DNA of 15,340 nt, taken from the NCBI GenBank assembly GCA_024278555.1, contig JAJRSX010000068.1, forward strand, positions 1 to 15,340. Reading direction: 5' to 3'. Origin of the DNA: a bacterium. Lineage in GTDB: Bacteria > CG2-30-53-67 > CG2-30-70-394. Of the stretch, positions 7,137-15,040 are shown one piece after another. Below the pieces are notes generated by a model that ran no database searches, was not told the DNA's origin, and was given only the letters and a program-made list of their open reading frames with translations. The translations under genes were made by a program, and so were the position numbers. Within the stretch, counting starts at the first letter, position 1; each line of letters starts with the position of its first letter.

Positions 7137-7384
7137 ACAATCCGTGGTTCAAGCCGCAATAGGAGGCGCGAATGGTGGGTGCCACCGGTCTGACGTCACC
7201 GGTGGAGGCAACCGGATCGCAACGGCCGGGAAGGCGGTTTATTGGCCACGGAACCCACGGAAGCACACGGAAGCAGGGGGCTCCCGTTGGGTTAGAGCGA
7301 GCGGGACCCCATTCCTGCGCGAAGCAGGAGCGGCGCCACACCTTCCTTGCTCCCTCCCTCTGCGTCCCCGCGTCTCTGCGTGAG
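7137..7384 (+). repeat. Dispersed 'CCACGGAACCCACGGAAG' intergenic element, copy A
   Basis: This noncoding stretch fills most of the gap 7110-7426. Its left part (from about 7137 through GCGAATGGTGG, GACGTCACC, CGGTTT) matches 14753-14858 closely. It is followed by the arm GGCCACGGAACCCACGGAAG (7244-7263) and CACACGGAAG. The core 7280-7340 (CTCCCGTTGGGTT, GGACCCCATTCCTGC, CGGCGCCAC) matches the minus strand of 14986-14927. It ends in CTCTGCGTCCCCGCGTCTCT plus GCGTGAG. Short CACGGAAG- and ACGCAGAG-type tandem motifs of this sort recur between genes in many proteobacterial genomes. No ORF is conserved between copies. 7029-7136 otherwise shows only the possible leader ORF. Confidence 0.75.
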
Positions 7385-14752: not shown

Positions 14753-15040
14753 GCCCATCCATAGATTGAGCCACGAATGGGATGCGAATGGTGGTGCCTC
14801 CAGTCCGACGTCACCAGTGTGGACAACCGGACCGCAACGGCCCGGAAGGCGGTTTTTTGGCCACGGAACCCACGGAAGGGCACGGAAGGGGCGAGAGTTT
14901 GCGGCGGGGGGAAGAGAACGAGGTGGCGCCGGCCGTGTTTCGAGCAGGAATGGGGTCCGGGTTGCTCGCTCAACCCAACGGGAGTTCCCGACTTCCGTGC
15001 CCTTCCGTGGGTTCCGTGGCCAATTCCCTGCCGGGCAGCT
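14753..15040. repeat. Dispersed 'CCACGGAACCCACGGAAG' element, copy B, with inverted core and 30-bp arms
   Basis: The left part (about 14753-14858) matches copy A (about 7137-7243). The arm at 14859-14888 (GGCCACGGAACCCACGGAAG plus GGCACGGAAG) is repeated as a perfect 30/30 inverted copy at 14992-15021. Between the arms the core (14927-14986) matches the copy A core (7280-7340) only on the opposite strand. The locus thus looks like two elements placed head to head, or an element whose core has flipped between its arms. No ORF is conserved. Confidence 0.75.

Follow-up and report, generated by a model that had tools for sequence, protein, structure and literature searches.

The window analyzed here, a stretch of 15,340 nucleotides, is one contig (C37) of a bacterial genome of 3.06 Mb in 211 contigs. 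It carries two copies of a repeat. Copy A (7137-7384) lies between genes for an alpha/beta-hydrolase and a CLC-type channel, both on the same strand, and copy B (from 14753) lies downstream of tmk, 317 bp from a contig end. (The gene names were read from the translations.) The initial annotation held that neither copy contains an open reading frame, and no convincing one was found in either. Neither copy matches an Rfam family, nor does any other element that was checked.

Copy B begins with a left flank (LEFT, 14753-14856, plus strand), which ends GGCCCGGAAGGCGGTTTT and is conserved throughout the family. There follows an arm (ARM, 14857-14888, plus strand), composed, as arms generally are, of three tandem CCACGGAA-type units (here TTGGCCACGGAACCCACGGAAGGGCACGGAAG), a direct repeat with a period of 9-10 bp and without a dyad. 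Then come a spacer (SPACER, 14889-14922, minus strand), which adjoins LEFT here but RIGHT in canonical copies, and a core (CORE, 14923-14991, minus strand), inverted with respect to both the flanks and copy A. The second arm (14992-15023, minus strand) is complementary to the first at 32 of 32 positions, with 103 nt between the two. The arms had initially been given as matching perfectly over 30 bp; perfect they are, over a slightly greater length. Beyond the second arm is the start of the right flank (RIGHT, 15024-15039, plus strand), TTCCCTGCCGGGCAGC, a sequence kept in most copies. It scores 14.0 against a threshold of 12.5, and RIGHT is recognizable in copy B over only about 16 bp.

Copy A, all of it on the plus strand, has LEFT at 7137-7241 and ARM at 7242-7273, and then CORE at 7274-7339 in the canonical, majority orientation. 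The core passes straight into CTCCCTCTGCGTCCCCGCGTCTCTGCGTGAGG, and the block at 7340-7384 (CTCTGCGTCCCCGCGTCTCTGCGTGAG) stands where the spacer, second arm, and RIGHT would be. Copy A, otherwise canonical, has lost these three parts to another repeat block. A similar ending is found in a copy on C174 (L033) and a looser one on C199 (L040).

The left part and arm of the two copies align in the same orientation, at 88% over 96 nt (7178-7273 with 14793-14888). The cores align in opposite orientation only, over 53 nt at 89% (7241-7293 with 14972-15024) and, in a second stretch, over 45 nt at 82% (7295-7339 with 14923-14967). The inversion of the core between the arms of B, relative to A, is thus real, and it lies essentially where it was first placed.

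The rest of the genome shows which copy is the odd one. A search with 14753-15040 returns 98 matching pieces, and about 31 relatives of the element can be scored, so the pattern in B is not due to chance. The stretches around them, laid out block by block, have the architecture LEFT - ARM - CORE - SPACER - inverted ARM - RIGHT, about 300 bp in all. LEFT is about 104 bp long and ends GGCCTGGAAGGCGATTTT, while RIGHT begins TTCCCTGCCGGGCGGC. Between them lies a module of 167 bp, consisting of two inverted arms of about 30 bp and an asymmetric center of 103 nt. Two arms are therefore the normal layout. The second arm had been seen as a peculiarity of B, but it is A that departs from the family. 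Mean pairwise identity is 86-89% in the arms, 79% in the core, and 77% in the spacer. Neighboring genes could be assigned, with a rough GC-frame ORF caller, for 28 of 32 elements examined, and they are codirectional in 18 cases, convergent in 5, and divergent in 5. The element is a non-coding, interspersed, mosaic palindromic repeat, and its module is a stem-loop.

Two side observations concern the blocks themselves. Upstream of the module at L063, the opposite strand of RIGHT is, by eye, an open frame ending ...DPMPPGRE, with its stop at the arm in the copy at 7.3 kb of C48. The same frame is common to several RIGHT copies, and RIGHT may derive from the 3' end of a gene. Elsewhere (L043 and L052:994-1110), a truncated module core is directly bordered by a GGGGTCAGGCTTGCAAACTTGCAA...TTGCAAGCCTGACCCC repeat, which looks as though it had inserted into the core.

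The perfection of the arms in B had been offered as a sign of recent gene conversion. It is weak evidence of that, because arms are conserved across the whole family and those within one element match each other only slightly better than shuffled pairs do (29.07 versus 28.53 of 32 positions, p=0.016).

How often, then, is the module turned round? Scoring 112 arms for the blocks outside and inside them, against shuffled controls, gives 18 LEFT-CORE and 19 RIGHT-SPACER arms but 3 LEFT-SPACER and 3 RIGHT-CORE arms (Fisher p=2e-6). Counted by locus, from the arm table and the alignments, 27 have the module in the canonical orientation and 4 have it exactly inverted, with one more that is probable. 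The inversion is seen at both junctions in B and in the copy at 7.3 kb of C48, which is the strongest single case since it has both flanks and lies mid-contig. It is seen at the LEFT junction on C14 and at the RIGHT junction on C112, where the element runs off its contig. The probable fifth case, at 32 kb of C174 (L037), has a spacer score just below threshold. In all the inverted copies the junctions are at the arms. The orientation is biased, 4 of 31 being inverted rather than half (p=3e-5 by a rough binomial test, the copies not being independent). I have high confidence in this layout and census. Copy B is the minority form. The copies are not all laid out like B, with A merely a truncated version: A is truncated, yet it has the majority orientation. 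Comparing core with arms over all the genomic copies, as the initial annotation suggested, shows that both orientations exist and so favors inversion.

The inverted copies belong to more than one lineage. When 22 modules are placed on a maximum-likelihood tree, three changes are needed to account for the inverted label, at least two of them forced by well-supported branches, though most branches are weak and the exact number of changes is uncertain. Copy B and the copy at 7.3 kb of C48 are neighbors (89/73), the C112 copy falls within a canonical clade (95/93), and the C14 copy stands apart. For the LEFT of the C14 copy, the nearest match is the LEFT of a canonical copy, on C203 (0.098). On a tree with mostly weak branches, then, inversion is shown to have happened more than once. 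Distances between modules do not correlate significantly with those between their flanks (Mantel r from about 0 to 0.18), and for that reason they do not separate a module turned in place from a cassette copied or inserted in either orientation.

I propose that the element is a non-autonomous repeat whose arms serve passively as homology, and that its center is occasionally inverted by exchange, template switching, or conversion. This mechanism, which I infer from the layout, seems to me probable, if well short of assured. A hairpin would be extruded or copied, and the arms would then exchange, or templates switch between them, leaving the center turned round. The other route would be conversion: a dispersed copy elsewhere, paired by way of the inverted arms, would act as donor and set the module in backwards. 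Neither a dedicated recombinase nor a regulatory role would be needed. Passive homology is the mechanism left because no dedicated recombinase of the classes searched, no dyad, no promoter, and no link to RAYT genes was found.

The element, taken as single-stranded DNA, folds far better than its shuffles (z=-6.6). In the arms, none of 27 predicted pairs has changed on both sides. Without compensatory changes, no selection for a hairpin RNA is seen, and a structured RNA gene was rejected as a candidate for lack of covariation in the arms and of an Rfam match.

The most serious competitor to passive homology is that the module, ARM-core-ARM, is itself a MITE-like mobile unit, inserted either way into a LEFT/RIGHT repeat, the inverted copies then being independent insertions. 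I regard this as possible but unlikely. It draws support from the lack of correlation between module and flank distances and from arms that stand alone around other centers, on C139 and C163 of this genome, or that occur in other bacteria without LEFT or RIGHT. Against it, no LEFT-RIGHT junction lacking the module appears among 43 further arm/RIGHT regions scanned, the junctions are the same in inverted and canonical copies, and no transposase flanked by arms was found in the regions fetched.

The arm in fact has a wider distribution than the element. With up to 3 mismatches allowed, this genome contains 121 matches to it, where a reversed-pattern control has 0, and many of the 121 flank other centers. 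The sister species has only 2 at up to 1 mismatch, and elsewhere in the class and phylum no family has the arm. When 84,980 species genomes were scanned for the 29-nt motif GCCACGGAAYCCACGGAAGNNCACGGAAG, it turned up in Marinobacter (four species), Tamilnaduibacter, and MAGs of the Ectothiorhodospiraceae, in each case without LEFT or RIGHT. At those arms whose surroundings were read, an inverted partner is nearly always present, often in concentric nested palindromes with variant units. No match was found in phages or plasmids. Text searches of the literature turned up no relevant paper on the arm sequence among the papers listed and, for Marinobacter, none on nested miniature inverted repeats.

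Marinobacter daqiaonensis has 102 arm matches at up to 3 mismatches. At many loci among its elements (L193-L224), nested palindromes are built concentrically of an outer GCCGCGGAATCCGCGGAAG, a middle GCCACGGAATCCACGGAAG, and an inner GCCACGGAC. Just one pair of the 32 elements, L197 and L198, shares both center and outer flank. Their modules align on the same strand (85.6% over 188 nt), and their outer flank plus arm on the opposite strand (96.5% over 85 nt). The pair is an analogous case in another genus, with the module turned with respect to the flank.

One might suppose from this distribution that the motif, common to this organism and to distant bacteria, is what some undescribed enzyme, cellular or mobile, recognizes, and that this enzyme puts nested palindromic cassettes in place and turns their centers. 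I consider that quite improbable.

How old are the arm elements here? At one locus, on C163 here and on C172 of the sister genome, an arm element whose second arm has decayed adjoins what by eye seems to be the same gene, and because of this some arm elements are probably older than the two species. At locus A both of the sister's contigs end between the same genes, and at locus B the stretch that follows tmk there cannot be aligned and offers no alignable empty site. In the place where copy B sits here, the sister carries a repeat of its own, ACCTCCCCCGCGCGCCTGGAGGCGC, in about three copies (L191, on C157).

Because both copies lie between genes and lack an ORF, the initial annotation reasoned that an enzyme acting in trans would be needed to invert the segment. 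The search for one lends no support to this. The genome has no serine recombinase (PF00239) and no IS110/Piv protein (PF01548), so the invertases of these two groups were rejected as agents of flipping. Of tyrosine recombinases (PF00589) it has XerD, a XerC-like protein that falls just short of the XerC cut-off, a partial integron-integrase frame, and a single match below threshold. (The integrase frame, L179, at G000:C121:12663-13133, encodes 151 aa matching positions 174-315 of TIGR02249, below its cut-off.) A single-copy Rayt/TnpA-like transposase had also been suggested. There are instead four RAYT-like Y1_Tnp transposase genes (L064-L067), with no convincing match to arm, LEFT, or RIGHT near any of them, and mobilization by RAYT was rejected since none is flanked by the arm. 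Some are bounded, as reading their flanks shows, by GGGGTCAG/GGGGACAG inverted ends that resemble the GGGGWSAS motif of TIRYT. The transposase of L067 has a C-terminal DnaA-like stretch (NCBIfam), and the GGGGTCAGGCTTGCAAACTTGCAA...TTGCAAGCCTGACCCC ends occur near it as well. No transposase was noticed between arm pairs in the regions fetched.

A dedicated switch is unlikely, and the segment gains no support as one operating now. On this proposal the module would be flipped actively, by a site-specific recombinase, and phase variation would result. Inverted repeats do bound a segment found in both orientations, and the inverted copies are polyphyletic, both of which would fit. Yet the recombinases searched for include no dedicated one, the tyrosine recombinases being those just listed. 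The arm, moreover, offers no dyad, the best being 3 bp (TGGCCA), which 97% of shuffles equal, and the orientation is strongly biased. In consensus scans, B and its surroundings show no sigma-70-like promoter, and B shows no terminator. Active flipping by such a recombinase is very unlikely.

Least credible of all is that the inverted layout of B is an artefact of assembling a MAG from short reads: the genome is in 211 contigs, B is near the end of one, and the C112 copy runs off another, but the inverted copies on C48 (a contig of 53 kb) and C14 (32 kb) lie well inside theirs, the core of each copy has diverged in its own way, and a typical read is longer than a 32-bp arm.

What the genome offers is a small natural test set, in which the center of an element has been repeatedly inverted between short inverted repeats. 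It bears on how palindromic intergenic repeats of bacteria may be remodeled without dedicated recombinases. It also carries a caution: finding a segment in both orientations, with inverted repeats around it, does not on its own count as evidence for a phase-variation switch. That unrelated bacteria share the same 29-nt arm, in nested palindromes, gives a lead toward a family of dispersed repeats not yet described.

Set beside known systems, the element shares with the Hin/Gin, FimB/FimE, and Piv switches a segment bounded by inverted repeats and found in both orientations. It differs from them in its biased orientation and in having no detected recombinase, dyad crossover site, or promoter.

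It is also like the REP, BIME, and REPIN repeats with their RAYT (TnpAREP) proteins, being short, mostly intergenic, mosaic, arranged in inverted pairs, present in high copy number, and accompanied by RAYT-like genes. A REP/REPIN repeat, however, is itself a short stem-loop, with a stem of 5-13 bp and a GTAG or CGTC tag at one end (PMC3733652). No hairpin lies within the arm, and none of the four RAYT-like genes has an arm nearby, so membership in this class was rejected. Canonical copies do have a GTAG string at the border of arm and core, joined to no arm stem. As a separate matter, hairpins of a Pseudomonas-REP-like kind, GTAGGAGCGGGTTGCACCCGCGATCC, are dispersed in this genome near arms (L087, L090, L100, L104, L111).

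There is a likeness, too, to MITEs such as the Correia elements (CREE), which are of about 100-300 bp and have terminal inverted repeats, no ORF, and many dispersed copies. The element has the structure by which MITEs are described: it is short, non-coding, and multi-copy, with terminal inverted repeats. Unlike them, it has additional conserved flanks beyond its arms, and no partner transposase was found in the regions fetched. The arm ends read TTA/TAA or TTG/CAA, and these lie inside the inverted repeat, so they are inseparable from any target-site duplication. The element is best called a MITE-like interspersed palindromic repeat with a recurrently inverted center, of a family for which no description was found.

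As for the inversion, there is a parallel in chloroplast DNA, where hairpins are known to go with small, recurrent inversions, typically of 4-50 bp (PMC12371153). There too a segment between inverted repeats is repeatedly found inverted. The inverted center here is longer, at 103 nt, and it belongs to a repeat family dispersed through a bacterial genome.
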